Position numbers and translations under genes: made by a program. The notes under the pieces are model-generated. The model did not search any database. It was not told the DNA's origin and saw only the letters and a program-made list of their open reading frames with translations. Of a DNA stretch of 49,030 nucleotides, positions 10,962 through 41,375 are shown piece by piece. The stretch covers positions 1 through 49,030 of the forward strand of contig JAKLLB010000021.1 of NCBI GenBank assembly GCA_023150345.1, read 5' to 3'. This stretch comes from Aquabacterium sp. (GTDB lineage Bacteria > Pseudomonadota > Gammaproteobacteria > Burkholderiales > Burkholderiaceae_C). How positions within the stretch are numbered: position 1 is the stretch's first letter; each line of letters begins with the position of its first letter.

Positions 10962-11023
10962 GGTGTTGGGACTCCGGTGGGCGATGGGTTCAGGTGGGGT
11001 CGCGTTCGGCGGTTCGGGCGTTC

Positions 11024-11542: not shown

Positions 11543-11594
11543 GATGAAGCGCTCCTGTGTGAGTGTGTCGACGGGGACGTTGGGCTGCGGAGGA

Positions 11595-19432: not shown

Positions 19433-19509
<77 letters not shown>

Positions 19510-19533
19510 AGAAATATGTGTGCTGACAAGCAC

Positions 19534-20157
19534 CTACGAAGCCCGCCACGTGCGGGCTTCGTCGTTGTGCGCCCAGCATGGGCGCGATTTTCGGGGTGCA
19601 AGTCCCCGGCTGACGCGAATGTCGACCTTCTGCTCCAGCAGGTGCGTGGCAAAGGCATGGCGCAGGCCATGCGGCGTGATGCGCTCGCCGTCGATGTCGC
19701 CGACCTCGAGCGAGACCACCTCGCTGACGCGCAGGCCTGCACCGTAGGCCACCGACATGGCGGCCTGGTGCTTGAGGTTGGGCGCGGCGGCGATCAGGCG
19801 GCCGACCTCCTCTGGGCTCAGGATCACTGGCAGCTTGCGCGGTACGGCTACGTGCGTCATCTCGAGCATGAGTTCGGGCCGGCCCAACGTGACGTCGAAG
19901 AAGAACTTCAACCCGGTGATGTTGGCGTTGATGGTCACAGGGCCGGTGCCGGTGTCCATCAGGCGCAATTGGAAGCGGCGCACGTCGTCGGCAGTGGCGG
20001 TGTGCGGCGAGCGGCCGAGGAAGGTGGCGCGCTTGCGCACGGCGCGGATGCAGCCCTCCTGCGTGTACTCGGCGAACTGGCGCATGCGCATGTCGTCGAG
20101 CATGCGCTGGCGCAGCGGCGAGACGGCCGCGGATGGGGTCGGGATGGAAACGTCCAT
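19534..20157 (-). pseudogene. Broken tyrosine recombinase/integrase
   Basis: From an ATG at 20157 the frame encodes a clear N-terminal SAM-like domain and the start of the catalytic domain of a phage-type integrase similar to those that travel with IS91-like elements (YTQEGCIRAVRKRATFLGRS, PVILSPEEVGRLI, YGAGLRVSEVVSLEVGDID with the first catalytic Arg). After GDIDGER it jumps directly to ITPHGLRHAFATHLLEQ, so about 90-100 residues of the catalytic core are missing in frame. The homology then stops at about 19615 and the frame runs through unrelated sequence into the tRNA terminator, so the active-site tyrosine is absent. The 207-aa frame is therefore a decayed remnant and cannot be an active recombinase. 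Confidence 0.85.
19537..19561 (+). terminator. Hairpin terminator after tRNA-fMet
   Basis: A perfect 10-bp GC-rich inverted repeat (CGAAGCCCGC / GCGGGCTTCG, 5-base loop) lies 28 bases after the tRNA, followed by the T-containing TCGTTGT. It fits a rho-independent-like terminator, though the T-tract is weak. Confidence 0.7.
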
Positions 20158-20787
20158 GATCCTGCTCCTGTCGGTGACCGAGGCGGATTGCCTCGATCGC
20201 CAACATCGCAGAGTCACGGGCGCAACAACCCGCCACCAACCTTGCCGGAGCGCCTGCCGCGCAAGCGGTCTAGTCCTTCGCTGCGAAGCAGGCCCTCCTC
20301 GACGCGAAGGCCAGCGCTGCAGACCGTCTGGACATCCTCCACTGGGATAGACGCATTGACCCATTCGCGCTGACCGCGCTGATTCCTGCATATCGCGGAA
20401 GGGGGGAGGGCTGCCGCGGCGCGCTTCATCTGGGCAACGCAGGAAGTTCAGCTCTGCAGGCGAACGTATCGCGAGGCAGGCGGGGAACGCCATAGGGCGG
20501 CGTCGATCCTCACGCGTCAGCGGCCGGCTGTACCCTGGGTCTCGCTGGTGACCGCCGACAATCGGCGAAAACTGTGTGGGCCATGCCCCTAGAGGTCAGC
20601 GGCTCGCCGCCGATGTCATGGGCCACGGTGTCACGGTCGGTCGGGGTGGCGTGGGGTCTAGCGACGTGAGTCGTGACACGGCAAAAGGCTTGCAGAGACG
20701 CCGCGCTACGAGGGCGAATGGCTTGGGGGGCAGGTTTTCATAGGTGGTGCAGTGGGAGCCGCCGAGTGATTGAGTCAAACGGGTCCA
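20158..20787. other. Non-coding or decayed stretch next to the integrase remnant
   Basis: No intact gene is supported in these 630 bases. A short plus-strand frame from about 20274 to 20400 (containing DRLDILHWDRRIDPF) looks protein-like but begins after a stop and has no start codon, so it may be a scrap of a lost mobile-element gene. The rest shows no recognisable feature. Confidence 0.5.
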
Positions 20788-20858
20788 GGGGCTCATAACC
20801 CAAAGTGCCCCCGCAACCAACAAACATGAGTGCTGGCAAGCACTTGCGAAGCCCGCTG
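20788..20858 (+). repeat. Partial decayed copy of the tRNA-fMet 3' part and its downstream flank
   Basis: Bases 20788-20819 repeat the anticodon arm (GGGCTCATAACCCAAAG) and 3' end (TGCCCCCGCAACCA) of the tRNA at 19433-19509 but lack 17 bases of the T-arm, so this cannot be a working tRNA. The next about 39 bases also match the flank after the intact tRNA with about 7 mismatches, including the GTGCT/AGCAC mini-hairpin. The two copies are direct repeats about 1.3 kb apart around the integrase remnant. This fits either an old attachment-site duplication or a degenerated tandem tRNA. Confidence 0.8.
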
Positions 20859-21243: not shown

Positions 21244-22149
21244 TCAGGGCGCAGCCGCCACCACCTCGTGCACCAGCCGCCGCAACCACACCAGACCGGG
21301 GTCGTGTGACTTGTAGCGGTGCCACTGCATCACGCACTCGAAGTCGGGGAACTCCACCGGCGGGCGCACCAGGCGCACCGGCAGGGCATGTGCGAGCAGT
21401 TGGGCCAGGCGGGTATGCACGGTGGCGATGCGCTGGGTGCCCACCACCAGGCGCATGGGCGAGGTGAGGTTGTAGGTGAGCACCTCGATGCGGCGCTCGA
21501 TGCCGTAGCGCTTCATGAACCAGTCTTCGAAAGTGGGCGCGCGCTCGGGCCCGAGCCAGGTGCTCACGTGCCCGGCTTCCAGGTACTGCGCCATGGTCAG
21601 GCGGCGCCCGACGTGGGTGTTGCCGTTCCAGACGACGCAGGTGTAGGTGTCGCGGATGGCCACTTCCGAGGGATGTGAATCGGCACCGAAGCGCGGCGGA
21701 ATGATCAGCAGGTCGATCTCGCCCTGGTCGAGCAGGGCCGGGCCCTTGTCCAGCGGCTCGAGCGCGAAGGTCACTCCGGGTGCCTCGGTGCAGGCGCGGG
21801 CGAGCACGCGGTCGAGCAGCACGGCCATGATGTAGTCGGAGGCGGCGATCACGAAGCGCCGCTTGGACTCGGCCGGCGCGAACTGCGGGCGGATGTCCAG
21901 CGCCGAGTCGATGCGCAGCAGGATGTCGCGCACCGCGGCCTCCAGGCCATCGGCCAGCGGCGTGCGCACCATCTTGCGGCCCACCTGCACGAACAGCGGA
22001 TCGTCGAAGTGCTCGCGCAGCCGCGCCAGCGCGCCGCTCATGGCCGATTGCGTCAGGTGCACCCGGTGCGCGGCACGGGTGATGCTGCCTTCGGCCAGCA
22101 GCGCATCCAGCGCCACCAGCAAGTTGAGATCGAGGCCGTTGAACCGCAT
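21244..22149 (-). CDS. LysR-family regulator, NodD-like
   Basis: A 301-aa LysR-type transcription factor. The start (MRFNGLDLNLLVALDALL) and the winged helix-turn-helix (SITRAAHRVHLTQSAMSGAL, residues about 21-40) resemble NodD-type regulators, followed by the HFDDPLFVQVGRKMVRTPLA stretch. The rest is the two-lobe effector-binding domain (about 90-295). It is divergent from the F420 operon, with a matching ATC-N9-GAT box between them, so it probably controls that operon in response to a small molecule. The frame stays open far upstream on this strand, but that extension is antisense to the F420 genes and is not counted. Confidence 0.95.
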   Translation of the reverse strand: MRFNGLDLNLLVALDALLAEGSITRAAHRVHLTQSAMSGALARLREHFDDPLFVQVGRKMVRTPLADGLEAAVRDILLRIDSALDIRPQFAPAESKRRFVIAASDYIMAVLLDRVLARACTEAPGVTFALEPLDKGPALLDQGEIDLLIIPPRFGADSHPSEVAIRDTYTCVVWNGNTHVGRRLTMAQYLEAGHVSTWLGPERAPTFEDWFMKRYGIERRIEVLTYNLTSPMRLVVGTQRIATVHTRLAQLLAHALPVRLVRPPVEFPDFECVMQWHRYKSHDPGLVWLRRLVHEVVAAAP

Positions 22150-22159
22150 GGCGCGCGAC

Positions 22160-22178
22160 GCATCGGTGCTATCGATGC
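22160..22178. promoter_or_regulatory. Candidate LysR/NodD-type operator (ATC-N9-GAT)
   Basis: The inverted repeat GCATCG-N7-CGATGC contains ATC-N9-GAT (22162-22176), the core known for NodD-type LysR boxes. It lies in the divergent region, centred about 65 bases upstream of the start point implied by the TTTACA-N17-TATCCT promoter, where LysR activators usually bind their recognition site. Binding itself is inferred. Confidence 0.6.
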
Positions 22179-22198
22179 GAAGGATCGGAACAACCCAT

Positions 22199-22227
22199 TT
22201 TACAGATGTGTGTCCGCTTCCTATCCT
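22199..22227 (+). promoter_or_regulatory. Candidate sigma-70 promoter of the F420 operon
   Basis: TTTACA (22199-22204) and TATCCT (22222-22227) are separated by exactly 17 bases and lie about 90 bases before the first gene. This is the best promoter-like pair in the region and fits the position of the upstream LysR box. Confidence 0.55.
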
Positions 22228-22317
22228 GCCGATCAATGGGGCGGGTGCAGGCATTGCCAGCACGGGCAACAGCCGTACCGCGCCCGGTACCACCACACCA
22301 CGCCGCGAGGGAATTTC

Positions 22318-23337
22318 ATGGACATCGGACTGGCCATCGCCGTACGCAACCTGCCGGGCAAGCCCCAGCACCTGCCCTCGCTGTATCGCGAGTTCCTCGC
22401 CGAGGCCGAGCTGGCCGAGCAGCTGGGCTTCGATGCCGTGTGGGTGTCGGAGCACCACTTCGCCGAGGACAACTGGAACAGCGCCACGCTGCCCATGCTG
22501 GCCGCAGTGGCCGCGCGCACCGAACGCGTGCGCCTGGGCACCTATGTGCTGCTGCTGGCGCTGCACGATCCGCTGCGCGTGGCCGAAGACCTCACCGGCA
22601 TCGATCTCATCTCCAACGGCCGGCTGGAAATCGCCGTCGGCGCCGGTCCGATGGAAGTCGAGTGCAAGGTGTTCGGCATCGACAAGAACGAGACCTTCGG
22701 CCGCACCTACGAGGCGCTGGAGTTCATGCAGCGCTGTTTCAGCGAGGACGGCCCGTTCACCCACGAGGGCAAGTACTACCACTACCCCAACGTGTGCATG
22801 CGGCCGCGGCCGGTGCAACAGCCCCATCCGCCGATCTGGATGGCGGCCATGGGTCCGCAGAGCATCCAGCGCGCCGCCCAGCGCGGCTACCACCTGGCCT
22901 CGGCGCTGCACTCGCCGCTGTGGAAAACCTACGCCGGTCAGCTGGAGGCGGCCGGTCGAAAGCGCAGCGACCACCGGGTGATGTCCGGGCCGCTGCTGGT
23001 GCACCTGGCGCCCACGCGTGAGCAGGCCTGGGACGAGGCCGAGCAGGGCATGCATTGGTGCGTCGATTTCTACAACCGGCGCGGCTGGACCGCCCCGCTG
23101 CCGCCGGTGGGCGAACTGCGTCGCACGCCAGACGCCGGCATCTACGGCATCCCCTTCGCCGTGGGCACGCCGCAGGACGTGGTGCGCATCCTGGGCCGCT
23201 ACCGCGAGGAGCCGCTGAACCAGATCTGCCTGCAGTTTCGCGCCCCGGGCATGGACTACGCCTGCGTCGAGCGCTCGCTGCGCATGTTCGCGGCCGAGGT
23301 CATGCCCGAGATGCGGCGCTGGGGCGCCCAGGCCTGA
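22318..23337 (+). CDS. Luciferase-like (LLM class) flavin/F420-dependent oxidoreductase
   Basis: A 339-aa TIM-barrel luciferase-like protein. Such proteins transfer hydride using FMN or, in one large subgroup, F420. Typical strings are FDAVWVSEHHFAEDNW (about residues 38-53), RVRLGTYVLLLALHDPLRVA, DLISNGRLEIAVGAG and PPIWMAAMGPQSIQRAA. The ATG at 22318 has GAGGGA at a good spacing; the frame is open further upstream but without family similarity. As the first gene of an operon that makes F420, use of F420 rather than FMN is plausible, but the sequence alone does not prove it. The substrate is unknown. Confidence 0.9.
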   Translation: MDIGLAIAVRNLPGKPQHLPSLYREFLAEAELAEQLGFDAVWVSEHHFAEDNWNSATLPMLAAVAARTERVRLGTYVLLLALHDPLRVAEDLTGIDLISNGRLEIAVGAGPMEVECKVFGIDKNETFGRTYEALEFMQRCFSEDGPFTHEGKYYHYPNVCMRPRPVQQPHPPIWMAAMGPQSIQRAAQRGYHLASALHSPLWKTYAGQLEAAGRKRSDHRVMSGPLLVHLAPTREQAWDEAEQGMHWCVDFYNRRGWTAPLPPVGELRRTPDAGIYGIPFAVGTPQDVVRILGRYREEPLNQICLQFRAPGMDYACVERSLRMFAAEVMPEMRRWGAQA

Positions 23338-23386
23338 CCGGGCCCGAACCCCCTTGGGCGATGGCGCGCAGCACCGGCGCACGGCG

Positions 23387-24169
23387 ATGACGACCTCCCA
23401 CGCCGCGCCGCGCCTGGAACTGGTCGCCCTGCCCGGCGTGCCCGAGGTCGGGGCCGGCACCGACCTGGCTGCGCTCGTCGTCGATGGCCTGGCGGCGGCC
23501 GGGCTGGACCTGCGCGACGGCGACGCGCTGGTGCTGGCGCAGAAGATCGTCTCCAAGGCCGAGGGCCGGCGCGTGGCGCTTGACAGCGTGCAGCCCTCGC
23601 CGCGCGCGCTCGAGGTGGCGGCCGCCGTGCGCAAGGACGCGCGCCTGGTGGAACTCATCCTGTCGGAGTCGCGCCGCATCGTGCGGCAGCGGCCCGACGT
23701 GCTCATCGTCGAGCATCGCCTTGGATTCGTCATGGCCAACGCCGGGGTCGACCAGTCCAACGTCGCGGGACCGGCTGGCTCCGAGGTGGCCCTGCTGCTG
23801 CCGCAGGATCCGGATGCCAGCGCCGCGCGCCTGCGCGAGGCACTCGCGCAGCGCCTGGGCGTGCGCGTGGCCGTCATCGTCAACGACAGCTTCGGGCGCC
23901 CGTGGCGCCGTGGCAGCGTCGGCGTGGCCATCGGTTGCGCCGGGTTGCCGGCGCTGCGCGACATGCGCGGGCTGCCCGACCGCCAGGGCCGGCGGTTGCG
24001 CGTGACCGAGGTGGCATTGGCCGACGAATTGGCAGCGGCCGCCTCGCTGCTGATGGGCCAGGCCGCCGAAGGGCTGCCCATCGTGCGCGTGCGCGGTGCG
24101 GTGCTCGAAGGCGCGGAAGTGGGCGCCGCCGCGCTCGTGCGCGCCGCGACGCAGGATCTGTTCCGATGA
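23387..24169 (+). CDS. cofE: Coenzyme F420-0:L-glutamate ligase CofE
   Basis: CofE adds glutamate residues to F420-0 with GTP. The 260-aa product has the family signatures LAQKIVSKAEGR (about residues 47-58), the VMANAGVDQSN stretch, and VIVNDSFGRPWRRGSVG (about residues 164-180). Its size matches stand-alone archaeal-type CofE; it lacks the C-terminal FMN-reductase-like domain that mycobacterial FbiB carries. The ATG at 23387 is preferred over the TTG at 23354. Its TGA overlaps the ATG of cofD (ATGA), so translation is coupled. Confidence 0.95.
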   Translation: MTTSHAAPRLELVALPGVPEVGAGTDLAALVVDGLAAAGLDLRDGDALVLAQKIVSKAEGRRVALDSVQPSPRALEVAAAVRKDARLVELILSESRRIVRQRPDVLIVEHRLGFVMANAGVDQSNVAGPAGSEVALLLPQDPDASAARLREALAQRLGVRVAVIVNDSFGRPWRRGSVGVAIGCAGLPALRDMRGLPDRQGRRLRVTEVALADELAAAASLLMGQAAEGLPIVRVRGAVLEGAEVGAAALVRAATQDLFR

Positions 24170-25110
24170 CCTCGGTGCTGGCGCTCACCGGTGGCGTGGG
24201 CGGTGCCAAGCTCGCGCTCGGCCTGGCGCGGGTCCTGCCGCCGGGCGAGCTGACGTGCGTGGTGAACACCGGGGACGACTTCCGTCACCTCGGCCTGGAC
24301 ATCTCGCCGGACATCGACACGCTGCTGTATACCCTGGCCGGTCTGGCCGACCCGGTGCACGGCTGGGGCCGGCGCGACGACACGGCCACCTTCATGCAGG
24401 CGCTCACGGCACTGGGTGGTGCCACCTGGTTCCACCTGGGCGATGCCGACCTGGCAATGCATGTCGAGCGCACGCACCGGCTGGCAGCCGGCCACTCGCT
24501 GGTGGCCATCAGCGACGACATGCGCCGCCGCCTGGGCATTGCCCAACGTGTGGTGCCGATGTGCAACGAAGCGGTGCGCACGCGGGTGCGCACCGCTGAG
24601 GGCTGGCTGGCCTTCCAGGACTACTTCGTGCGGCGCCGCTGCGAGCCGGCGGTGCGCGAGCTCGAGTACCTGGGGGCCGACGCGGCCACGCCGGTACGCG
24701 AACTGCAGACCCTGGCCACGCAGCCGGGGCTGCGCGCGGTGGTGATCTGCCCGTCCAACCCGTTCCTGAGCATCGGGCCCGTGCTCGCGTTGCGCGGGGT
24801 GCGCGAGGCGCTGGCGCGCTGCACCGCTCCGGTGATCGCGGTCTCGCCCATCGTCGCCGGCGGGGCGGTGAAAGGACCGACGGCCAAGCTGATGGGTGAA
24901 CTCGGCTTCGAGGTTGGTCATGCCGCGGTCGCCGCCCACTATGCCGGCCTGGTCGATGCCCTGCTCGTCGACGACGACAGCGGCTGCGCGCCCGGGCAGG
25001 CACCGTGGATCACCGCGCCTACGCTGATGCAGACCCTGGAAGACCGCGAGCGTCTGGCGCGCTGCGTGCTCGACATCGCCGACCGCCTGGCAGCGGCGCC
25101 ACGGCCATGA
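24166..25110 (+). CDS. cofD: F420 phospho-lactyl/phospho-glyceryl transferase CofD
   Basis: CofD (FbiA) joins the GDP- or GTP-activated three-carbon phospho-acid to the deazaflavin Fo to make F420-0 or its variant. The 314-aa product has the family opening LALTGGVGGAKLALGLARVL, VVNTGDDFRHLGLDISPDID (about residues 32-51), YTLAGLADPVHGWG, CPSNPFLSIGP and IVAGGAVKGPTAKLM. All are hallmark CofD strings. It overlaps cofE and cofC by ATGA. Confidence 0.97.
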   Translation: MTSVLALTGGVGGAKLALGLARVLPPGELTCVVNTGDDFRHLGLDISPDIDTLLYTLAGLADPVHGWGRRDDTATFMQALTALGGATWFHLGDADLAMHVERTHRLAAGHSLVAISDDMRRRLGIAQRVVPMCNEAVRTRVRTAEGWLAFQDYFVRRRCEPAVRELEYLGADAATPVRELQTLATQPGLRAVVICPSNPFLSIGPVLALRGVREALARCTAPVIAVSPIVAGGAVKGPTAKLMGELGFEVGHAAVAAHYAGLVDALLVDDDSGCAPGQAPWITAPTLMQTLEDRERLARCVLDIADRLAAAPRP

Positions 25111-25808
25111 CGGTGCACGCGCTTGTTCCCGTCAAGAGCCTGGCGCAGGCCAAGCAGCGCCTGCGCGGCTGCCTCACGCCGGCTCAGCGCCACGCCCTGG
25201 CCGCGCACATGCTGCTCGACGTGCTGCAGGTGCTGGCGCAGGTGCGTGGCCTGGGCCGCCTGGGCGGTGTGTGGGTGGTGACGGCCGATGCCGAGGTGGC
25301 CACGCTCGCCGGGCGCTGCGGCGCCACGGTGCTGGCCGAGCGTGGCGCCGACGGGCTCAATGCCGCGGTGGGCCAGGGTGCGCGCTGGCTGCAGGCGCAA
25401 GGCGCTGCCGGGATGCTGGTGCTGCCGTCCGATGTCCCCGGAGTCACCGCGGGCGAGCTGGATGCCGTGCTGCGCATGCATCGGTGCGGGCGCGCCATGA
25501 CCCTGGTGCCTTCGCGCGATGGCGACGGCACCAATGCCCTGCTGCTTACGCCCGCCACCGCGCTGCGCCCGGCCTACGGGCCCGGCAGCTGCGCCCGGCA
25601 CCGGCTCGCGGGCCATGCCGTCGGGCTGGCGCCGCGCGTGGTCGAGCTGCCCGGGCTGGGGCTCGATCTCGATCATCCACACGACCTGCACGCGTTCGTG
25701 GCGCGCTATCCCACCACGCGCACCGGTCGCATTCTCGGCGCTCTCGGCGCGCATCTGCCGCCGCGTTGCGTCACCTCGAAAGGAACCGAACACCATGACG
25801 TCCCATAG
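25107..25808 (+). CDS. cofC: Phospho-lactate/glycerate/PEP guanylyltransferase CofC
   Basis: CofC (FbiD) activates the three-carbon phospho-acid with GTP before CofD. The 233-aa product has the nucleotidyltransferase start VHALVPVKSLAQAKQRL (residues 3-19), the LPSDVPGVTAGELDAVL metal/nucleotide block, and the SRDGDGTNALLL and LGLDLDHPHDL segments. Whether it takes 2-phospholactate, PEP or 3-phosphoglycerate cannot be read here. No gene for a dehydro-F420-0 reductase is seen nearby, which would be needed for PEP. It overlaps cofD by ATGA and the next gene by 14 bp. Confidence 0.95.
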   Translation: MTVHALVPVKSLAQAKQRLRGCLTPAQRHALAAHMLLDVLQVLAQVRGLGRLGGVWVVTADAEVATLAGRCGATVLAERGADGLNAAVGQGARWLQAQGAAGMLVLPSDVPGVTAGELDAVLRMHRCGRAMTLVPSRDGDGTNALLLTPATALRPAYGPGSCARHRLAGHAVGLAPRVVELPGLGLDLDHPHDLHAFVARYPTTRTGRILGALGAHLPPRCVTSKGTEHHDVP

Positions 25809-28239
25809 GCACGCCGCACCGGTCGGCCAGATGCTGCAGGCGCTGGCCGAGCGCGCCATCGCCGGCGCTGAGCCTGGCGACGAGGAGGCCCTGGCGCTGG
25901 CCGAGGTCAGCGACCTGCCGGCGCTGATGGCCGCCGCGGCGGCGGTGCGCGATCACGGCCGCGGGCGGGTTGTCACGTTCTCGCGCAAGGTCTTCATCCC
26001 GCTGACGCGGCTGTGCCGCGACCAGTGCCACTACTGCACGTTTGCGCAAGGGCCTGTGCCTGGCCATGCCGCCTATCTCAGCCCCGACGAGGTGCTGGCC
26101 ATCGCGCGCGCCGGGCAGGCCGCCGGTTGCGACGAGGCGCTCTTCACGCTCGGGGATCAGCCCGAGCGCCGCTGGCCCCAGGCGCGCCGGGCGCTCGCCG
26201 AGCTTGGGCATGCGAGCACGCTGGACTATCTGCACGCCATGGCCCACCGCGTGCTCGAGGAAACCGGCCTGCTGCCGCACCTCAACCCGGGCGTGATGGG
26301 CGCCGAGGACATCGCCCGGCTGCGTCCGGCGTCGGCCTCGATGGGGCTGATGCTGGAGTCGGCCAGCGAGCGGCTGTGCGGACGCGGCGGTCCGCATCTG
26401 GGTTCGCCTGACAAGCAACCCGCGCTGCGCCTGGCCACGATCGAAGCCGCGGGTCGCGCGGCGGTGCCCTTCACCAGCGGCATCCTGATCGGCATCGGCG
26501 AGACGCGGCGTGAGCGCATCGAGTCGTTGCTGGCGCTGCGCGCACTGCACCGGCGCTACGGTCACCTGCAGGAGGTGATCGTGCAGAACTTCGTGCCCCA
26601 TCCGGGCACCCGCATGGCCGAGCACTCCGAGGCATCGCTGGCCGATCACCTGTGGAGCATTGCCGTGGCGCGGCTGGTGTTCGGCATGCGCACCGCGATC
26701 CAGGCACCGCCCAACCTGCGGGGCGATCACCTCGGCCAGTTGCTGGCTGCCGGCGTCGACGACTGGGGCGGGGTGTCGCCGGTCACACCCGACCATGTGA
26801 ATCCGGACCAGCCATGGCCGACGCTGCAGCGCCTGGCCGTGCTCACTGCCGATGCCGGGCACCGGCTGGTGCCGCGGCTGGCCGCCCACGCCCACCATGT
26901 GCGCGATGCGCAAACCTGGTTCGACCCCGCATTGCGGCCGCATGTGTGGCGGCGCAGCGATGCCCAGGGCCTGGCACGGCCCGACGACTGGACACCCGGC
27001 GGTGCCGTGGCGCCGCAATGGCCACCGCAGCTGGAGTCGCCCCCGGCTGCGCAACCGATCGCGGCCCCCGCCCTGGTGCTGCCCACGGCGGCACAGCAGG
27101 CCCTGGCGCGCTGCCTGCAGACGGGCGAGCCGGCGGCCGCGGACATTGCCACCCTGTTCGCGGCCCGAGGCGCGGATGCCCTGCAGGTGTGCGCGGCGGC
27201 CGATGCCCTGCGGCGCGAGGCCAACGGCGACGTCGTCGGCTATGTCGTCAACCGCAACATCACCTACACGAATGTGTGCGGCCACCGCTGCCAGTTCTGT
27301 GCCTTTGCGCGTGGGCGCCGGCATGAATCGCTGCGTGGCCCGTCCTACGAGTTCGACCTGGCCGAGATCGTGCGGCGCGCGGTCGAGGCCCAGGGGCGCG
27401 GCGCCACCGAGGTCTGCATCCAGGGTGGCATCCACCCGGGCTATGACGGCGGGCACTACCTGGACATCGTGCGCGCCGTGAAGGCCGCGGCGCCCGGCCT
27501 GCATGTGCATGCCTTCTCGCCGCAGGAGATCACACAGGGCGCGCGCACGCTGGGCCTGCCGGTGGTGGAGTTCCTGCGGTCGTTGCGCGCAGCCGGGCTG
27601 GGCAGCCTGCCGGGCACGGCGGCGGAGATCCTGCACGACGATGTACGCAGGCAGATCTGCCCCGACAAGATCGACACGGCGCAATGGCTGGCGGTGGTGG
27701 AAGCCGCGCACGACGCCGGCCTGCCGACCACGGCCACCATCATGTTCGGCCACGTCGAGCACGCCGGCCACTGGGCTGCACACCTGCTGGCCTTGCGCCG
27801 TCTGCAGGCCCGTACCGGGGGCTTCACCGAGTTCGTGCCGCTGCCGTTCGTCGCCGCCGAAACGCCGATGTTCCGCCAAGGTCGCTCGCGCAGCGGCCCC
27901 ACGCTGCGCGAGGCGGTGCTCATGCATGCGGTGGCGCGCATCGTGCTGCACCGGTACATCGACCACATCCAGGCCTCGTGGGTGAAGATGGGGCCGCAGG
28001 GCATGCGCATCTGCCTGGGTGCCGGCGCCGACGACTACGGCGGCACCCTGATGGACGAGTCGATCAGCCGCGCCGCGGGCGCCGGACACGGCCAGTGGCT
28101 GCAGCCCCAGGCCATCGAATCGTTGATCGTCGACGCCGGGCGCATTCCGGTGCAGCGCAGCACGCTGTACCAGCCGGCGCGCACGGTGCCCGCCTCGGTG
28201 ACGGCGCCGCAGATCGTCTCGCTGGTCGCGCATGCTTAG
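25795..28239 (+). CDS. fbiC: Fo synthase, fused CofG-CofH (FbiC)
   Basis: FbiC makes the deazaflavin core Fo from tyrosine and a riboflavin precursor, using two radical-SAM halves. The 814-aa product is a fused protein: the CofG-like half has the CxxxCxxC cluster motif at Cys74, Cys78 and Cys81 (TRLCRDQCHYCTF) and the CofH-like half has its own at Cys495, Cys499 and Cys502 (NVCGHRCQFCAFARG). Other supports are ASMGLMLESASERL, GLGSLPGTAAEILHD and FGHVEHAGHW. A proline/alanine-rich linker lies near residues 405-440. This is the mycobacterial-type fusion. The ATG at 25795 has AAAGGAAC upstream. Confidence 0.97.
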   Translation: MTSHRHAAPVGQMLQALAERAIAGAEPGDEEALALAEVSDLPALMAAAAAVRDHGRGRVVTFSRKVFIPLTRLCRDQCHYCTFAQGPVPGHAAYLSPDEVLAIARAGQAAGCDEALFTLGDQPERRWPQARRALAELGHASTLDYLHAMAHRVLEETGLLPHLNPGVMGAEDIARLRPASASMGLMLESASERLCGRGGPHLGSPDKQPALRLATIEAAGRAAVPFTSGILIGIGETRRERIESLLALRALHRRYGHLQEVIVQNFVPHPGTRMAEHSEASLADHLWSIAVARLVFGMRTAIQAPPNLRGDHLGQLLAAGVDDWGGVSPVTPDHVNPDQPWPTLQRLAVLTADAGHRLVPRLAAHAHHVRDAQTWFDPALRPHVWRRSDAQGLARPDDWTPGGAVAPQWPPQLESPPAAQPIAAPALVLPTAAQQALARCLQTGEPAAADIATLFAARGADALQVCAAADALRREANGDVVGYVVNRNITYTNVCGHRCQFCAFARGRRHESLRGPSYEFDLAEIVRRAVEAQGRGATEVCIQGGIHPGYDGGHYLDIVRAVKAAAPGLHVHAFSPQEITQGARTLGLPVVEFLRSLRAAGLGSLPGTAAEILHDDVRRQICPDKIDTAQWLAVVEAAHDAGLPTTATIMFGHVEHAGHWAAHLLALRRLQARTGGFTEFVPLPFVAAETPMFRQGRSRSGPTLREAVLMHAVARIVLHRYIDHIQASWVKMGPQGMRICLGAGADDYGGTLMDESISRAAGAGHGQWLQPQAIESLIVDAGRIPVQRSTLYQPARTVPASVTAPQIVSLVAHA

Positions 28240-29233
28240 GGTCGGATACAAGGCTTCGGCCGAGCAGTTCGCGCCGGCAGACCTGCTGCGCTTTGCCGTG
28301 CAGGCCGAGCGCGGCGGGCTCGACTCGGTCTTCATCAGCGACCACTTCCAGCCATTCCGGCACACCGGCGGCCATGCCCCGTTCTCGATGGCCTGGCTGG
28401 GCGCGCTGGGCGCATGCACCGAGCGCGTGGTGATGGGCACCAGCGCGCTCACGCCCACGCTGCGCTACCACCCGTCGGTGGTGGCGCATGCTTTCGCGAC
28501 GCTGGGCGCGATGTTTCCCGGGCGGGTGGTGCTCGGCGTGGGCACCGGTGAGTCGCTCAACGAAGTGGCGCCCACCGGCATCGACTGGCCGGCACCGGGC
28601 GAGCGCACCGCCCGGCTGCGCGAGTCGGTCGACCTGATCCACCGGCTGTGGAGCGGCGAGCGCGTGAGCTTCGAGGGCCAGCACTACCGCACGGTCGACG
28701 CCATGCTCTACGACCTGCCGCCGCGGCCGGTGCCGATCTACATTGCCGCGGCCGGACCGGTGGTGGCGCGCATGGCCGGCGCGCGCGGCGAGGGTTTCAT
28801 CTGCACCAGCGGCAAGCCGCCCGAGCTGTACCGGCAGACGCTGCTGCCTGCGCTGACGCAGGGGCTGGAGTCAGCCGGCCGCACGTTGCAGTCGATCGAC
28901 CGCATGATCGAGGTGAAGCTGTCCTACCACCGCGACCGCCAGCAGGCGCTGCATCACACGCGCTTCTGGGGTGCGCTGGCACTGGGCAAGGAAGAGAAAC
29001 TGGACGTGCAGGATGCGCGCGAGATGGAACGCCGCGCCGATGCGTTGCCGATCGAACGCGCCGCCAGTCGCTTCATCGTGACGAACGACGCCGACGAAGT
29101 CATCGAGCGCGTGCGGCCGTATGTCGAACTCGGCTTCGGGCACCTGGTGTTTCACTCGCCGCAGCCCAATCAGGCGCGCTTTGTCGAGGACTTCTGCGCG
29201 CAGGTGCTGCCGCGGCTGCGGCGCGCCTTCTAA
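28232..29233 (+). CDS. fgd: F420-dependent glucose-6-phosphate dehydrogenase-like enzyme
   Basis: FGD oxidises glucose-6-phosphate to 6-phosphogluconolactone and makes reduced F420. The 333-aa product aligns by eye with mycobacterial FGD along its whole length: GYKASAEQFAP, SDHFQPFRHTGGHAPFS, LGVGTGESLNE, EGFICTSGK and EMERRADALPIERA. Known active-site Asp39, His40 and Glu109 map to Asp37, His38 and Glu107; the phosphate-binding Lys198, Lys259 and Arg283 map to Lys195, Lys256 and Arg280. The mycobacterial Trp44 is Phe42 here. The start overlaps the fbiC end by 8 bp. It is the best single clue that this cell uses F420H2. The substrate may differ from glucose-6-phosphate, but the phosphate ligands are kept. 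Confidence 0.93.
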   Translation: MLRVGYKASAEQFAPADLLRFAVQAERGGLDSVFISDHFQPFRHTGGHAPFSMAWLGALGACTERVVMGTSALTPTLRYHPSVVAHAFATLGAMFPGRVVLGVGTGESLNEVAPTGIDWPAPGERTARLRESVDLIHRLWSGERVSFEGQHYRTVDAMLYDLPPRPVPIYIAAAGPVVARMAGARGEGFICTSGKPPELYRQTLLPALTQGLESAGRTLQSIDRMIEVKLSYHRDRQQALHHTRFWGALALGKEEKLDVQDAREMERRADALPIERAASRFIVTNDADEVIERVRPYVELGFGHLVFHSPQPNQARFVEDFCAQVLPRLRRAF

Positions 29234-29270
29234 CGCACGTGGATGTGTCAGGGGCCGGCGCCCCTCATCC

Positions 29271-30125
29271 TCAGAGCGGTCGCGGCACGTTCCAGCCGCC
29301 CAGTCCCTGGGCGTAGATGCGGCCTTCGAGGGTCTCGGGGTCGAGCACCGCCGCCTTCGGGCTGCTGCGTCCGCCCAGGGTGTAGTCGTAGATCACGCGT
29401 TCGGTGGTGACCATCGAGAAGCTGCCGGCGGAGTCGACGAACCCGGCCTCGCTGTCGGTGATGGCGTGGTGCCACTCGGGGTCGCGCCGCAGGGCGGCCA
29501 GGTCGTCGAGGTTGCGGAACCAGAACTCCTCGATGCCGGAGACGGCCGACGTGTCACCGCGCTCGAACAGCGAACCCGCGAAGTTGGCGGCGTCTATGGC
29601 CACCGGGTGGTTGCGGATGGCCTTGCGAAGCAGCGGCCGCCGGGCGTTGAGCTGGCGGTAGGTGTCGGCGTGCGGACCGCGCCACGCGGCCTCGAACTGC
29701 GCCTGGGTGAGCCCGGGCTTGCGCTTGAGGAAGTGGATGAGCTTGACGCCGCCGCAACCGCCCTCGAAGCCAGGCTCCTCGAGCACGGTCTCGTCAGTGG
29801 CCAGCGTGATGACGAAGTTCGAATCGCCGAACTTGTGCGGCTGCATGCGCACCACGTAGTCGCGCACGCGGGTCGAGGCCAGCACGTCGTCGTAGCTGTC
29901 CACCACATGCTCGGCGTAGTTGTCCCACTGCATGTCCGACAGCGGGTGGATGAGCATGCCGGGATCGATGTCGCTGACCGAGTAGTGCTGCACGTAGCGG
30001 CGGAACAGCCGCATCACGTCAGGCGTGCTGATCATCAGGGCGACGTGAATGATGCCCCACTCGTAGAAGTACCGCTCCTGGGTGTCCTCGCGCTTGCGCC
30101 GCGCGGCGAGTAGGAACTTGATCAA
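29271..30125 (-). CDS. EthD-like two-domain protein
   Basis: A 284-aa protein with two EthD/dimeric alpha-beta-barrel-like repeats: VTLIKFLLAARRKRED followed by a WGIIHVALM strand at the start, and VKLIHFLKRKPGLTQAQFEA at about residues 144-163, with a WRGPHADTYRQL stretch after it. Such proteins are small ferredoxin-like-fold modules of uncertain role, often beside degradative genes. The start is taken as TTG at 30125, because an excellent AGGAGG lies 7 bases upstream and no better ATG or GTG is present; the open frame upstream lacks conservation. It is convergent with the fgd gene and downstream of the IclR gene (110 bp). Confidence 0.82.
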   Translation of the reverse strand: MIKFLLAARRKREDTQERYFYEWGIIHVALMISTPDVMRLFRRYVQHYSVSDIDPGMLIHPLSDMQWDNYAEHVVDSYDDVLASTRVRDYVVRMQPHKFGDSNFVITLATDETVLEEPGFEGGCGGVKLIHFLKRKPGLTQAQFEAAWRGPHADTYRQLNARRPLLRKAIRNHPVAIDAANFAGSLFERGDTSAVSGIEEFWFRNLDDLAALRRDPEWHHAITDSEAGFVDSAGSFSMVTTERVIYDYTLGGRSSPKAAVLDPETLEGRIYAQGLGGWNVPRPL

Positions 30126-30235
30126 GGTAACGCCTCCTGGCCATGCGTTGTCGGTGTGCACGCATGGTAGGCAGCGCCCTGCCCGCGGAGAAATCGAATC
30201 TGGCGATGGCCAGGATCGGTTTCGACGGTGGCTGA

Positions 30236-31054
30236 TCAGCGCTGCGTGCGCACACCGGCGATGGATTGCTGCAGCCGGTCGCAGTGGGCGACGAGCAGGC
30301 GCTCGAGGTGGGCGCGGGCATCGGCGAAGCGCGGCGTGGGCACGGGCACCGACACCGCCGCGAGTTCGCCGTTGGGCAGGACGATGGCGCGCGATACGGC
30401 GCAGATGCCCAGCGAGTTTTCTTCGAGGTCGCTGGCCACGCCGCTGGCGCGCACCCGGTCGAGCTCGGCGGCCAGCACATCCCACGAGGTGATGGTGCGC
30501 GCCGTCAGGCGCAGCAGCCGCAGGCGCGAGCGCAGGTTGTGCAGAGTCTGCAGCGGCAGGGCGGCCAGCATCGCCTTGCCCGGCGCCGTGGAGTGCAGCG
30601 CGAAGGACACGCCGATGGCCGACTCGGCGCGCAGCCGGTGCACGCCCGCGGCGATCTGGTCGACGAACACCAGCTTGTCGCCATCGAGCACCGAGAGGTC
30701 CACGGTTTCACCGCACTCGCGCGAGATCTCCTGCAGCGTCGGCCGCGCGAGCTCGGCGATCTCGAAGCGGGTGGCGGCGGCCAGCGCGAGCAGGGCCGGG
30801 CCCAGGCGCACGCCTCGCGTGGGCGACGCGGCGATGACGAGGTTCTCGGCGTCCAGCGCGTCGACGATGCGTTGGATGGTCGAGCGCGGCAGCGCCAGCA
30901 GCTTGGCCAGCTCTCCCAGCGACAGGCCATCCGGGTGGTCTTTCAGTGCACGCAGCACCGCCGCGGCGCGGGCGATCACCTGCACGCCGTGGCGTGGCTC
31001 CGGCGGCTCGCTGGCTTTGCCGGTGGTGAGTGGTGGGTCGGAAGGTCGGGCCAT
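30236..31054 (-). CDS. IclR-family transcription regulator
   Basis: A 272-aa IclR-type regulator. The winged helix-turn-helix is at about residues 23-85 (GVQVIARAAAVLRALKDHP, LSLGELAKLLALPRSTIQRI) and the effector-binding domain follows, with the typical FALHSTAPGKAMLAALP and LGICAVSRAIV strings. It is divergent from the cyclase operon, with palindromes in between (see 31091-31189), so it probably regulates the catabolic operon and possibly itself, responding to an aromatic or organic acid. Confidence 0.95.
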   Translation of the reverse strand: MARPSDPPLTTGKASEPPEPRHGVQVIARAAAVLRALKDHPDGLSLGELAKLLALPRSTIQRIVDALDAENLVIAASPTRGVRLGPALLALAAATRFEIAELARPTLQEISRECGETVDLSVLDGDKLVFVDQIAAGVHRLRAESAIGVSFALHSTAPGKAMLAALPLQTLHNLRSRLRLLRLTARTITSWDVLAAELDRVRASGVASDLEENSLGICAVSRAIVLPNGELAAVSVPVPTPRFADARAHLERLLVAHCDRLQQSIAGVRTQR

Positions 31055-31090
31055 GGGATGCGGGGCATTGTGCCGGCAGCCCGCAGTCTA

Positions 31091-31189
31091 GGGTTAACCC
31101 CGGTGTGCAGCGGCCGCGTTGTCGTCCAAAGTTCATCTCACAGAACCGAGTAGCGATACAGCTGTACCGCAATATGGTTCAGTATAACC
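31091..31189. promoter_or_regulatory. Cluster of palindromes between iclR-type gene and the catabolic operon
   Basis: Three palindromes occur in the 176-bp divergent region: GGGTTAACCC at 31091-31100, TACAGCTGTA at 31157-31166, and GGTT-N6-AACC at 31176-31189. The first and third share the half-site GGTT/AACC. A TATAAC at 31183-31188 inside the third could be a -10 element of the rightward operon, but no convincing -35 is seen. They are candidate IclR operators; this is inferred from position and symmetry. Confidence 0.5.
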
Positions 31190-31230
31190 CCCTGACCCGC
31201 GCGGCGAGCTGCCGCGCACAAGGAGCACCG

Positions 31231-32070
31231 ATGGTCCGTATCCGCGGCGTGAAATTCCAGGAGAACCTCAAGAACGACATGGGGCTCGAGTTCTACGACC
31301 TGAGCCACCCCTGGGGCCTGGGGCAACCGTGCTGGCCCTACTTCGAGGATGTGAAGATCGAGCGGCTGCACAACATGGCCAAGTCCGGCGTGCTCACGCA
31401 GCGCATCACCACCGTGATGCACTCGGGCACGCACATCGACGCACCGGCGCACGTGGTCGAGGGCACGCCCTTCATGGACGAAGTGCCGCTGCCGCACTTC
31501 TTCGGCACGGGCGTGGTGGTGTCGATCCCGAAGAAGAAGTGGGAAGTCATCACCGCGGCCGACCTCGAGGCCGCCAGCCCGCAGATCCGCGAGGGCGACA
31601 TCGTCATCGTCAACACCGGCTGGCACAAGTACTACGCCGACAGCCGCATGTACTACGCCTACTCGCCGGGCTTCTACAAGGAAGCCGGCGAGTGGTTCGC
31701 CAAGAAGAAGGTCAAGATGATCGGCACCGACACCCAGGCGCTCGACCATCCGCTGGGCACGGCCATCGGCCCGCACGGCCCCGGCTGGCCCAACGGCCTG
31801 CTGCCGCAGGTCAACCAGGAATACGAGAAGCTCACCGGCCGCAAGGTCATCGAGGACTTCCCCGAGTGGGAGCCCTGCCACCAGGCGATCTTGAAGCACG
31901 GCATCTGCGGTATCGAGAACGTCGGCGGCGAGATCGACAAGGTCACCGGCATGCGCGTCACCTTCGCCGCGTTCCCGTGGCGCTGGGTGGGTGGCGACGG
32001 CTGCATCGTGCGCCTGGTGGCCATCGTCGACCGCAGCGGCAAGTACCGCTTCGAGAACGGCAAGGGCTGA
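31231..32070 (+). CDS. Cyclase/kynurenine formamidase-like metal hydrolase
   Basis: A 279-aa member of the cyclase family (PF04199-type), which contains amide and ester hydrolases such as kynurenine formamidase. The metal-binding signature HSGTHIDAPAH lies at residues 64-74 (His64, His68, Asp70, His74). The mid-region NTGWHKYYADSR and the DTQALDHPLGTAIGPHGP stretch are also characteristic. ATG 31231 is preceded by AAGGAG. It heads the plus-strand operon, 5 bp before the cupin gene. The substrate is unknown; opening of an amide, ester or lactone bond is plausible. Confidence 0.9.
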   Translation: MVRIRGVKFQENLKNDMGLEFYDLSHPWGLGQPCWPYFEDVKIERLHNMAKSGVLTQRITTVMHSGTHIDAPAHVVEGTPFMDEVPLPHFFGTGVVVSIPKKKWEVITAADLEAASPQIREGDIVIVNTGWHKYYADSRMYYAYSPGFYKEAGEWFAKKKVKMIGTDTQALDHPLGTAIGPHGPGWPNGLLPQVNQEYEKLTGRKVIEDFPEWEPCHQAILKHGICGIENVGGEIDKVTGMRVTFAAFPWRWVGGDGCIVRLVAIVDRSGKYRFENGKG

Positions 32071-32075
32071 GCTTC

Positions 32076-32420
32076 ATGCGCGTCACCCGCTTCGGCGAGG
32101 CGCCGCCGTACGAGGCGCCCAACCACTTCGATGTGCGTTCGCTGCGACTGCAGGGCTTTGCGCCGGGCGGACCCGAGAAGTTCTGGGTCGGCCTGTCGCA
32201 CTACCTGCCCGGTGCCTCGGCCGGCCCCGACAGCTCGCCGCTGGAGAAGGTCTACGTCGTGCTCGCCGGCGCCCTCACGGTGCAGTCCGGCGACCAGGAG
32301 GTGGTGCTAGGCCCGATGGACAGCTGCTGCATTCCGCCCAACGAGACGCGCACGGTGAAGAACCACGGCAACGAGGTGGCCACCATGCTGGTGGCGATGC
32401 CCTACCCGGAGAAGAAGTGA
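32076..32420 (+). CDS. Small cupin-domain protein
   Basis: A 114-aa single cupin. The core strands LEKVYVVLAGALTVQSGDQE and LGPMDSCCIPPNETRTVKNHG give the usual beta-barrel pattern, but the usual His-X-His/Glu metal motif is poor (EKVY; late His95), so metal binding is uncertain. It lies between the cyclase and the SDR, 5 bp after the cyclase; its stop overlaps the next start (TGATG). It probably serves the same pathway. Confidence 0.85.
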   Translation: MRVTRFGEAPPYEAPNHFDVRSLRLQGFAPGGPEKFWVGLSHYLPGASAGPDSSPLEKVYVVLAGALTVQSGDQEVVLGPMDSCCIPPNETRTVKNHGNEVATMLVAMPYPEKK

Positions 32421-33229
32421 TGGTGGGCAACCCCGACTGGCTGACCCACCCCGCATCGTTGTTCGATGTGCGCGGCAAGGTCGCGGTGGTCACCGGCGCC
32501 TCGGGCGCCTTCGGCAGCCTGGCGGCCAAGGTGCTGGCCGGTGCCGGCGCCCGGCTGGTGCTGGCCGCGGGCAACGAGAAGTCAATGGCCGAAACGGCGC
32601 AGGCCTGCCGCGCACTGGGCGCCGAGGTCCACACCGTGGCGCGCCGCCCCGGCACCGAGGCCGACTGCGATGCCATCATGGATGCCGCCATCCAGGCCTA
32701 CGACGCCCTGGACATCCTCGTCGTCGGCTCGGGGCTGAACGATCCGTGCCCCGTCACCGAGCAGTCGCTCGAGCGCTTCGAGAACGTGATGGACGGCAAC
32801 CTGACCAGCGCCTGGTTGCTGTGCCGCGCCTTCGGCCAGCGGGTGATTCCGCGCGGCATCAAGGCCAAGGTGGTGCTGATGAGCTCGGCGCGGGGCAAGC
32901 TGGGCCACCCGGCGGGATACACCGCGTATTGCGCGTCCAAGGCCGCCACCGACGGCCTGACGCGCGCGCTGGGCTGCGAGTGGGGCAAGCACGGCATCAC
33001 CGTCAACGCCATCGCACCCACGGTCTTCCGATCGCCATTGACGGCCTGGATGTTCGAGGACAACGAGCGGGCCAACGCGGTGCGCGCCGGCTTCCTCGCG
33101 CGCGTGCCGATGGGCCGCCTGGGCGAGCCCGAAGACCTGGCTGGCCCCCTGCTGTTCCTGTGCTCGCGGGCCAGCGACTTCCACACCGGCCACACGGTTT
33201 ACGCCGATGGTGGCTACACCGCAGGATGA
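32420..33229 (+). CDS. Short-chain dehydrogenase/reductase
   Basis: A 269-aa classical SDR that reduces or oxidises a carbonyl/alcohol with NAD(P). The glycine-rich cofactor motif TGASGAFG is at residues 25-32 and the catalytic Tyr170 and Lys174 (AYCASK) follow Ser155/156 (LMSSARG). The ADGGYTAG end is typical. The usual NNAG motif is replaced by GSGLND, a minor oddity. TGATG coupling with the cupin and ATGA coupling with the next dehydrogenase place it firmly in the operon. Confidence 0.93.
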   Translation: MVGNPDWLTHPASLFDVRGKVAVVTGASGAFGSLAAKVLAGAGARLVLAAGNEKSMAETAQACRALGAEVHTVARRPGTEADCDAIMDAAIQAYDALDILVVGSGLNDPCPVTEQSLERFENVMDGNLTSAWLLCRAFGQRVIPRGIKAKVVLMSSARGKLGHPAGYTAYCASKAATDGLTRALGCEWGKHGITVNAIAPTVFRSPLTAWMFEDNERANAVRAGFLARVPMGRLGEPEDLAGPLLFLCSRASDFHTGHTVYADGGYTAG

Positions 33230-34158
33230 GCGCCGCCGTGTTCACGCCACCCAGCAAGCGCATTGCCGTCATCGGTGCCGGACTGATGGGCCACGGCATC
33301 GCCCAGGTCTTCGCTGCCGCCGGCCACCGGGTGCAGGTGCACGACGTCGACGAGCGCGCACTGGCCACGCTGCGCGAGCGCGTCGCCCGCAACCTGGCCG
33401 ACCTGGGCCAGGACGTGAACGCCGCCCAACGCGTGCAGCCCGAGGGTGAACTGGCAGAGGCAGTGGCGCAGGCCGATGTCGTCTTCGAGGCGGGCCCCGA
33501 GAACCTCGGCTGGAAGCGCGAACTGTTCCAGCGCCTGGAAAAGCTCGCACCGGCCTCGGCGCTGCTGGCCAGCAACACCTCGGTCATCCCCATCACGCAG
33601 ATCATGGACGGTCTGCGCACCGGCCGCCGGGCCATGGGCACACATTGGTGGAACCCGCCCTACCTGGTCCCGCTGGTGGAGGTGATCAAGACTCCGCACA
33701 CCGACCCGGCCCTGGCTCAAGGCATGGCCGACCTGCTGGCCGCTGTTGGCAAGACACCGGCCATGGTGGAAAAGGACGTGCCCGGCTTCATCGGCAACCG
33801 CCTGCAGCATGCGCTGTGGCGCGAGGCCATTGCGCTGGTGGAAGCCGGCGTGTGCGACGCACGCACGGTCGACACGGTGGTCAAGGCCAGCTTCGGCCGC
33901 CGCCTGCCGGTGCTGGGCCCGCTGGAGAACGCCGACCTCGTGGGCACCGACCTCACGCTGGCCATCCACGGCACCGTGCTGCCGGCCATCGACAGCCGCC
34001 CCGCGCCATCGCCTTACCTGGCGCAGCTCGTGGAGCAAGGGCGCCTGGGCATGAAAAGCGGCGAAGGCTTCATGCGCTGGACACCGCAGGAGCAGGCGGC
34101 GCTGCGCGCGCGCGTGCTGGCCCACCTGAAGGCCATGAACGCCGCCGACGAGCGCTGA
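33226..34158 (+). CDS. 3-hydroxyacyl-CoA/carnitine dehydrogenase-like enzyme
   Basis: A 310-aa single-function dehydrogenase of the 3-hydroxyacyl-CoA dehydrogenase family. The Rossmann motif GAGLMGHG is at residues 17-24, the catalytic-region ASNTSVIPIT at about 115-124 and the catalytic His140 within GTHWWNPPYLVPLVEV. This sequence style also includes L-carnitine dehydrogenases, which oxidise a free beta-hydroxy acid. As the very next gene is a beta-keto acid cleavage enzyme, the likely role is oxidation of a beta-hydroxy acid or CoA ester to the beta-keto form. The exact substrate is unknown. Confidence 0.9.
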   Translation: MSAAVFTPPSKRIAVIGAGLMGHGIAQVFAAAGHRVQVHDVDERALATLRERVARNLADLGQDVNAAQRVQPEGELAEAVAQADVVFEAGPENLGWKRELFQRLEKLAPASALLASNTSVIPITQIMDGLRTGRRAMGTHWWNPPYLVPLVEVIKTPHTDPALAQGMADLLAAVGKTPAMVEKDVPGFIGNRLQHALWREAIALVEAGVCDARTVDTVVKASFGRRLPVLGPLENADLVGTDLTLAIHGTVLPAIDSRPAPSPYLAQLVEQGRLGMKSGEGFMRWTPQEQAALRARVLAHLKAMNAADER

Positions 34159-34198
34159 CCCCGACCCCAAGCCCCGCGTGGCCGCAAGGAGCATACCC

Positions 34199-35137
34199 AT
34201 GGCAAAGAAGCCCAACAAGGTGATCATCACCTGCGCCGTCACCGGTGCGATCCACACGCCGACGATGTCGGAGTACCTTCCGCTCACCCCGGCGCAGATC
34301 GCCGAGCAGGCGATCGACGCCGCCCAGGCCGGCGCGGCCATCCTGCACCTGCATGCACGCGACCCGAACGACGGCCGCCCGAGCGCAGACCCCGAGGTGT
34401 TCGCGCAGTTCCTCGGGCCGATCAAGCGCGCCACCGACGCGGTCATCAACATCACCAGCGGCGGCTCGACCAAGATGACGTTGGCCGAGCGGCTGGCGCC
34501 GCCGCTGCGCTTCAAGCCCGAGATGGCCTCGCTGAACATGGGCTCGATGAACTTCTCGATCCACCCCGCGGCGCAGAAGATCAAGACCTGGAAGTACCCC
34601 TGGGAGCAGGCCTACGTGGAAGGCACCGAGGACATCATCTTCCGCAACACCTTCCGCGACATCCGCCACATCCTGGCCGACCTGGGCGAAGGTTGCGGCA
34701 CCCGCTTCGAGTTCGAGTGCTACGACGTCGGCCACCTGTACAACCTGGCGCACTTCGTCGACGCCGGGCTGGTCAGGCCGCCGTTCTTCATCCAGACCAT
34801 CTTCGGCATCCTCGGCGGCATCGGCCCCGATCCGCAGTGCGTGACCTTCATGCGAGACACCGCCAACCGGCTGTTCGGCGACGCCTACCACTGGTCGGTG
34901 CTGGCCGCCGGCCGCCACCAGATGGGGCTGCTGACGTACGCCGCCATCATGGGCGCCAATGTACGCGTCGGTCTGGAAGACAGCCTCTACCTCGGTCGTG
35001 GCCAGATGGCCACCAGCAACGCCGCGCAGGTGCGCAAGATCCGTCACCTGCTCGAGGAACTCGGCTACGAGATCGCAACGCCCGAGGAGGCGCGCGCGAT
35101 GCTGGCGCTCAAGGGCGCGGCGAACGTGGCGTTCTGA
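34199..35137 (+). CDS. Beta-keto acid cleavage enzyme (BKACE, DUF849)
   Basis: BKACE enzymes are zinc-dependent TIM-barrel proteins that condense a beta-keto acid with acetyl-CoA and split it into acetoacetate and a new CoA ester. The 312-aa product shows the family start VIITCAVTGAIHTP, the zinc ligand pair His50/His52 in ILHLHARDP, the INITSGGST loop and the third zinc ligand Glu260 in VRVGLEDSLYLGRGQ. Length is normal. The start ATG at 34199 has AAGGAG upstream. With the dehydrogenase upstream and the importer downstream it suggests catabolism of an imported beta-hydroxy/keto acid. Confidence 0.95.
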   Translation: MAKKPNKVIITCAVTGAIHTPTMSEYLPLTPAQIAEQAIDAAQAGAAILHLHARDPNDGRPSADPEVFAQFLGPIKRATDAVINITSGGSTKMTLAERLAPPLRFKPEMASLNMGSMNFSIHPAAQKIKTWKYPWEQAYVEGTEDIIFRNTFRDIRHILADLGEGCGTRFEFECYDVGHLYNLAHFVDAGLVRPPFFIQTIFGILGGIGPDPQCVTFMRDTANRLFGDAYHWSVLAAGRHQMGLLTYAAIMGANVRVGLEDSLYLGRGQMATSNAAQVRKIRHLLEELGYEIATPEEARAMLALKGAANVAF

Positions 35138-35173
35138 TCGCGCATCACCGCTACCACAGCGCAGGAGCAGGCC

Positions 35174-36382: not shown

Positions 36383-36407
36383 GCCCTGGTTCCCCGCCTG
36401 CCGACCC

Positions 36408-39774: not shown

Positions 39775-39835
39775 CCCGACCGTGCCGGAGTCCACCACGC
39801 CAGACAGCGATCGCTTCCACCGAAGGCCCCACATC

Positions 39836-41368: not shown

Positions 41369-41375
41369 GAGCGAG

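Follow-up and report, generated by a model that had tools for sequence, protein, structure and literature searches.

A coenzyme F420 operon with a predicted F420-dependent glucose-6-phosphate dehydrogenase in a Burkholderiales genome

Introduction

F420-dependent glucose-6-phosphate dehydrogenase (FGD) is best known in actinobacteria. Betaproteobacterial producers of F420 are stated to encode only Fno, the NADPH:F420 oxidoreductase, in the available part of a 2021 review (PMC8498797, citing Ney 2017). The contig of Aquabacterium sp. analysed here carries an apparent F420 operon with an fgd homologue at its 3′ end, which raises the question of how such an operon would recharge its cofactor and where its genes came from. 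We refer to the entire contig (C133; JAKLLB010000021.1, 49,030 nucleotides) as the window and give positions in its coordinates.

Results

A complete F420 biosynthesis set followed by fgd

The window contains a single plus-strand run of six genes in the order LLM1-cofE-cofD-cofC-fbiC-fgd, spanning 22318-29233 (Table 1), as an earlier note on this DNA had proposed. The overlaps of ATGA or longer that it described from cofE through fgd are present as well, measuring 4 nt (cofE/cofD), 4 nt (cofD/cofC), 14 nt (cofC/fbiC) and 8 nt (fbiC/fgd). A gap of 49 nt separates the end of LLM1 from the start of cofE, for which an alternative in-frame TTG start is possible at 23354.

Table 1. Predicted features of the operon and its upstream region
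Feature	Position	Strand	Profile support (bits)
LysR-family regulator gene, divergent from the operon	21244-22176	-	PF00126 and PF03466
Intergenic region lysR/LLM1, presumed promoter site	22177-22317	.	position only
LLM1, luciferase-like oxidoreductase	22318-23337	+	PF00296, 197
cofE, F420-0:L-glutamate ligase	23387-24169	+	TIGR01916, 275.4 (cut-off 180.65)
cofD, transfers the GDP-bound phospho-C3 acid to FO	24166-25110	+	TIGR01819, 272.8 (cut-off 257.45)
cofC, guanylyltransferase with a PEP/2-phospholactate-type residue	25107-25808	+	TIGR03552, 151.8 (cut-off 105)
fbiC (fused cofGH), FO synthase	25795-28239	+	NF006687, 1086.4 (cut-off 1018)
fgd (FGD)	28232-29233	+	TIGR03554, 443.3 (cut-off 420)

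Five of the six genes exceed curated NCBIfam cut-offs, LLM1 being the exception, and the claim that a Burkholderiales genome holds an F420 synthesis set together with an FGD is borne out by those for cofE, cofD, cofC, fbiC and fgd. In fact, CofE, CofD, CofC and CofG/CofH all lie above a curated cut-off, the set by which we recognize an F420 biosynthesis operon; CofE passes one of the three CofE models shown and stays below NF009809 (260.9 of 274) and NF009810 (229.6 of 304). FbiC contains two CxxxCxxC radical-SAM motifs, CofD has the solved relatives 3c3d and 6uvx, and a relative of the LysR regulator (49%) lies divergent from cofE in the sampled genome G340. It is a real and well-formed operon, of a kind unusual in this group.

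Genomic context

The genome (4.58 Mb) is 94.37% complete and its assembly is in 251 contigs, a fragmentation that could favor a binning or assembly artefact over a betaproteobacterial locus. We give this reading almost no credence. The stated contamination is 0.11%, a profile-confirmed type VI secretion gene (TssG) lies on the same contig, and cofD and fbiC are proteobacterial. Furthermore, window positions 27057-39225 align colinearly with contig JABWBN010000076.1 ("Burkholderiaceae bacterium isolate MAG_31") at 95.7% over 12,179 alignment columns; the match takes in fgd, a portion of fbiC and genes downstream but not cofE, cofD or cofC. In addition, an FGD over the cut-off is found in two other genomes of the order.

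Around the operon, a gene set similar to a type VI secretion cluster occupies approximately 1065-14625; apart from TssG, its members were seen in the gene list only. At 19433-20856 there is a tRNA-Met, with a tyrosine recombinase ORF enclosed by two 51-nt copies (88% alike) of the 3′ end of the tRNA and its flank. This may be what is left of an integration site, approximately 1.5 kb to the left of the operon. Mobility of the operon through this repeat was rejected: the two copies found within 19300-44000 do not bracket it. A 91-nt tRNA-Val called by ARAGORN at 43291-43381, inside a long ORF, is probably spurious.

Downstream, 31030-35134 holds genes of the cyclase, cupin, SDR, 3-hydroxyacyl-CoA dehydrogenase and BKACE (NF053538, 524.7 vs 430) families. 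The SDR has as its best solved relative 5g4k, which we take to be a phloroglucinol reductase. Further along (35174-42308) are two permease genes that resemble those of Liv/Urt ABC transporters but score below the model cut-offs, and an ORF whose chalcone isomerase domain falls short of the threshold (24.2 of 25 bits). Taken together, the 31030-42308 set resembles the phloroglucinol cluster of Clostridium scatologenes as given in the accessible part of PMC10470551.

FGD is rare in this lineage

FGD was searched with TIGR03554 at E 1e-60 and CofD at E 1e-40, in genome samples that overlap. With the window's genome included, FGD occurs in 1/399 sampled genomes of the family, in 4/399 of the order (3/399 over the cut-off) and, at E 1e-60, in 2/398 of the phylum sample; the class of G920, a sample outside which the window's genome lies, gave 5/142 at the same threshold. 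The earlier note's view that an FGD is unusual here agrees with the family count, with the order count over the cut-off and with the part of the review available (PMC8498797). CofD itself was detected in 10/399 family genomes and, at E 1e-40, in none of the five same-genus genomes of the sample, because of which the operon looks sporadic in its genus.

A scan of named genomes, which covers close relatives only, returned six loci: MAG_31 and five from actinobacteria. Among the 30 plasmid matches listed of 465, those annotated as fgd are all from Rhodococcus (55.7-58.4% identity) and one unannotated match is from Nocardia (57.7%); 54 Burkholderia records matched overall, none of them among the 30 listed. 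In the literature searched, most subscription papers lying outside its reach, we came across no paper that describes a betaproteobacterial operon with FGD. As predicted from its genes, the window locus is an exception to the Fno-only statement in the available part of PMC8498797, and with it a known system reaches a lineage from which it was said to be absent.

Origin of fgd and the cof genes

The FGD tree (20 rows) places the window and MAG_31 in one group (88/90) with G481 and G414, both of the same order. This beta group is nested in a larger one (84/94) that also contains four FGDs from another class, and neither node is starred; the window branch is long (0.61), and G920 falls outside the proteobacterial group. 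In quick trees, the window is sister to G340 for cofD (17 rows; SH-aLRT 95), and the window with MAG_31 is sister to G340 for fbiC (19 rows; SH-aLRT 99). G340 belongs to the window's own family and stands apart from the actinobacterial rows in both trees. Partial fbiC or cofE rows (G481, G329, G090, MAG_31) were kept in the trees where present.

The earlier note had suggested testing by phylogeny whether the genes were transferred from actinobacteria, and the trees speak against a direct transfer. In the actinobacterial contigs L004-L007, fgd adjoins cofC and fbiC, which would agree with the operon and fgd having been taken directly from an actinobacterium. However, the FGD groups, with moderate support and despite the outlying G920, with proteobacterial FGDs, to which it is also closer (62-65% identity) than to five actinobacterial rows (56-59%); for cofD and fbiC, the sister row, G340, is from the window's family. 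We thus regard this origin as very unlikely; an older transfer into Proteobacteria is possible from these sequences. Separate histories of fgd and the cof genes would fit as well, because FGD-linked rows are scattered through the trees of cofD and fbiC and fail to form a single clade in either.

FGD and Fno in proteobacterial F420 operons

Fno (npdG, TIGR01915) does not reach the cut-off in the window's genome (best match 72.5 vs 149.8 bits). Among the ten family genomes with CofD, six have Fno over the cut-off (G105, G272, G393, G382, G142 and G094), all without FGD; the window's genome (G000) has FGD without Fno over the cut-off, and G340, G090 and G329 have neither. The absence of both beside the cof genes of G090 and G329 says little, because the G090 contig measures 3,157 bases and the locus of G329 lies at a contig end. 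Fno is likewise over the cut-off in none of the seven other FGD genomes. Fno is therefore over the cut-off in 0/8 FGD genomes versus 6/9 FGD-less CofD genomes (Fisher two-sided p 0.009, kinship ignored), a distribution that makes the two look interchangeable.

The positions of the genes point the same way in part. The six Fno loci share homologous cofE, cofD and fbiC with the window, but in all of them Fno immediately precedes cofE, on its strand, and FGD is absent at E 1e-60. In G1257, G1208 and G481, fgd occupies this very place; elsewhere it is beside cofE but divergent (G920), before cofC (G414) or, in the window, at the 3′ end. The last position, outside the Fno place, counts against substitution of Fno by FGD in this operon, as does G340, the nearest relative by cof genes, which by profile search carries neither FGD nor Fno over the cut-off.

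For the seven other FGD genomes, cof content was scored within the stretches fetched around fgd. All five genes, counting fgd, are present in the stretches of G920 and G1257 only; fbiC was not found in that of G1208, cofD in that of G481, cofD and cofE in that of G414, and the G1165 and G1219 stretches yielded no cof gene. The G1257 locus (fgd-cofE-cofD-cofC-fbiC), from another class of the phylum, has the same five genes in a row at 42-63% identity and likewise a divergent LysR-family gene upstream. In contrast to the window, its fgd comes first and not last, its LysR has no match to the window LysR at 1e-3, and its nearby LLM gene is 4 kb away and of another subfamily. In sum, this small sample suggests that the recharging module, Fno or FGD, has been exchanged.

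The FGD protein and its substrate

The structure model of the window FGD (pLDDT 89.0) matches FGD1 of M. tuberculosis (3b4y) with a TM of 0.94 and 56% identity in the structural match. Compared with FGD1 of Mycobacterium/Rhodococcus (3b4y, 5lxe), the fold, about 56% identity and, by alignment, the equivalents of the G6P-phosphate-binding residues K198, K259 and R283 and of D39, H40 and E109 are kept. We count the latter three as catalytic in FGD and presume that Trp44 and His260 are positions of interest; a literature search on W44 and H260 gave nothing relevant. The window protein differs by Trp44->Phe, His260->Leu, Val74->Ala and Gly177->Ala, and by its location in a proteobacterial cof operon. 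Phe44 is also present in five Thermoleophilia-type rows, His at 260 is absent in 8/8 proteobacterial FGD genomes, and position 177 is Ala or Ser in seven of these eight, Gly being found only in G920. Because of the four substitutions and the long branch, the rate or substrate range of this FGD may differ from that of FGD1. Between the window and MAG_31, the dN/dS values of 0.29 (fgd) and 0.22 (part of fbiC) come from few changes.

The triad is strictly conserved in FGD-active proteins, and mutation shows its necessity in Rhodococcus FGD1, according to the part of PMC5352752 available. In the accessible text of PMC6279831, Gly177 marks FGD and Ser marks the broader F420-dependent sugar-6-phosphate dehydrogenase (FSD), both families having the same phosphate-binding residues, so that these residues do not decide between the two. 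With Ala at this position, the window enzyme may or may not be strict for glucose-6-phosphate. The homologue could thus resemble the FSDs and act mainly on a different sugar phosphate, a reading to which the Ala in the window and the Ala or Ser in most proteobacterial FGD genomes lend weight, whereas the score above the FGD equivalog cut-off (TIGR03554) argues against it; we consider it rather unlikely.

Next to fgd of G414, and divergent from it, is a gene of the gluconolactonase family (PF08450, 190 bits; L041 8116-9255), which fits a sugar-lactone product. Zwf is above the cut-off in the window's genome, where FGD would therefore be a second glucose-6-phosphate dehydrogenase. At E 1e-20, Zwf is present in the FGD genomes G000 (window), G481 and G920, missing in one of nine FGD-less CofD genomes (G142), and not detected in five of the seven other FGD genomes (G414, G1165, G1208, G1219 and G1257), in which FGD may be the main glucose-6-phosphate dehydrogenase.

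The type of F420

According to the part of Hasan and colleagues available (PMC8764529), Ser or Thr at the position of Mycetohabitans CofC S162 is the mark of 3-PG use, and a dehydro-F420 reductase is unnecessary if 3-PG is used. The window CofC has Gly at this position (Mtb FbiD G163), where the 3-PG enzyme has Ser; across the window and the compared loci, 18 of 19 rows have Gly and one has Ala, G393 contributing none. This residue points to PEP or 2-phospholactate as the expected substrate. A 3PG-F420 like that of Mycetohabitans would suit another betaproteobacterium and would remove the need for the reductase, but in view of the Gly in place of Ser or Thr we judge this variant highly improbable. 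The window shares with the Mycetohabitans locus, as far as PMC8764529 and PMC8498797 are available, betaproteobacterial F420 synthesis through CofC and CofD, and differs in this residue and in having FGD.

If CofC uses PEP, the resulting dehydro-F420 must be reduced, yet the best match to the FbiB C-terminal profile in the window's genome (94.37% complete) scores 33.1 vs 249.55 bits, and the cut-off is reached in none of the 15 genomes searched. Below the cut-off, at 153-155 bits, G340 (L021 18-797) and G094 (L029) each encode a nitroreductase-type protein similar to the C-terminal domain of FbiB. The two are 77% alike over 196 residues, and that of G340 lies 6 kb from its cof genes. On similarity, both are candidate dehydro-F420 reductases of Burkholderiales.

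Possible users of F420H2

The luciferase-like gene that the earlier note had offered as a candidate F420 user is present, while its candidacy is weak. LLM1 passes no cut-off among the 25 families shown of 32 matched; the best NCBIfam among those 25 is the F420 subfamily TIGR03619, at 134.3 of the 166.9 needed. Its AlphaFold model (pLDDT 90.3) is closest to 2i7g, RslO1 and luciferases; in Foldseek, monooxygenases and luciferases, which we take to be FMN users, fill ranks 1-13, and F420 enzymes follow from rank 14. LLM1 may be an F420 user, its cofactor being ambiguous. Besides itself, its nearest relative in 18 genomes searched (37%) is in G340, on the contig of the cof genes.

Because LLM genes adjoin fgd in G481 and in G1208 as well, the association may be a recurrent one. 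In G481 (L040 7158-11411), fgd has as its immediate neighbor an F420-dependent LLM gene of TIGR03842 (482.4 vs 295.45), and an amidase of the hydantoinase/carbamoylase family follows cofE. No FDOR-B is over the cut-off in the window's genome, G414 alone among the 18 genomes having one, and with LLM1 ambiguous the window's genome offers no firm F420H2 user. The Mycetohabitans genome is described, in the part of the review available, as lacking homologues of known F420-dependent enzymes (PMC8498797), whereas the window has an FGD.

Discussion

Our preferred reading, in which we have good confidence, is that the operon makes an F420-type cofactor that is recharged with glucose-6-phosphate through an FGD standing in for Fno. 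It draws on gene content, order and families, on the catalytic and phosphate-binding residues, and on an Fno score below the cut-off, all of which are read from the sequence. In the proposed cycle, FbiC would build FO, CofC would activate PEP or 2-phospholactate using GTP, CofD would join the activated product to FO, and CofE would add glutamates. FGD would then transfer a hydride from glucose-6-phosphate to the cofactor, substituting for the Fno that lies beside cofE in 6/9 sampled FGD-less F420 loci of the family. We infer cofactor production, activity with glucose-6-phosphate, control by the divergent LysR regulator and the users of F420H2.

A more ambitious version combines Fno and FGD as interchangeable parts of proteobacterial F420 operons, a glucose-6-phosphate-driven cycle on classical or dehydro-F420 without an FbiB-type reductase, and a reductive step for the neighboring phloroglucinol/flavonoid-like catabolic cluster; as a whole, we hold it to be speculative and very unlikely.

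With this locus it becomes testable how a Gram-negative producer obtains a stable cofactor when its CofC is not of the 3-PG type and no FbiB-type reductase is over the cut-off. If the preferred reading is true, F420 reduction in these bacteria would be coupled to sugar phosphate instead of NADPH.
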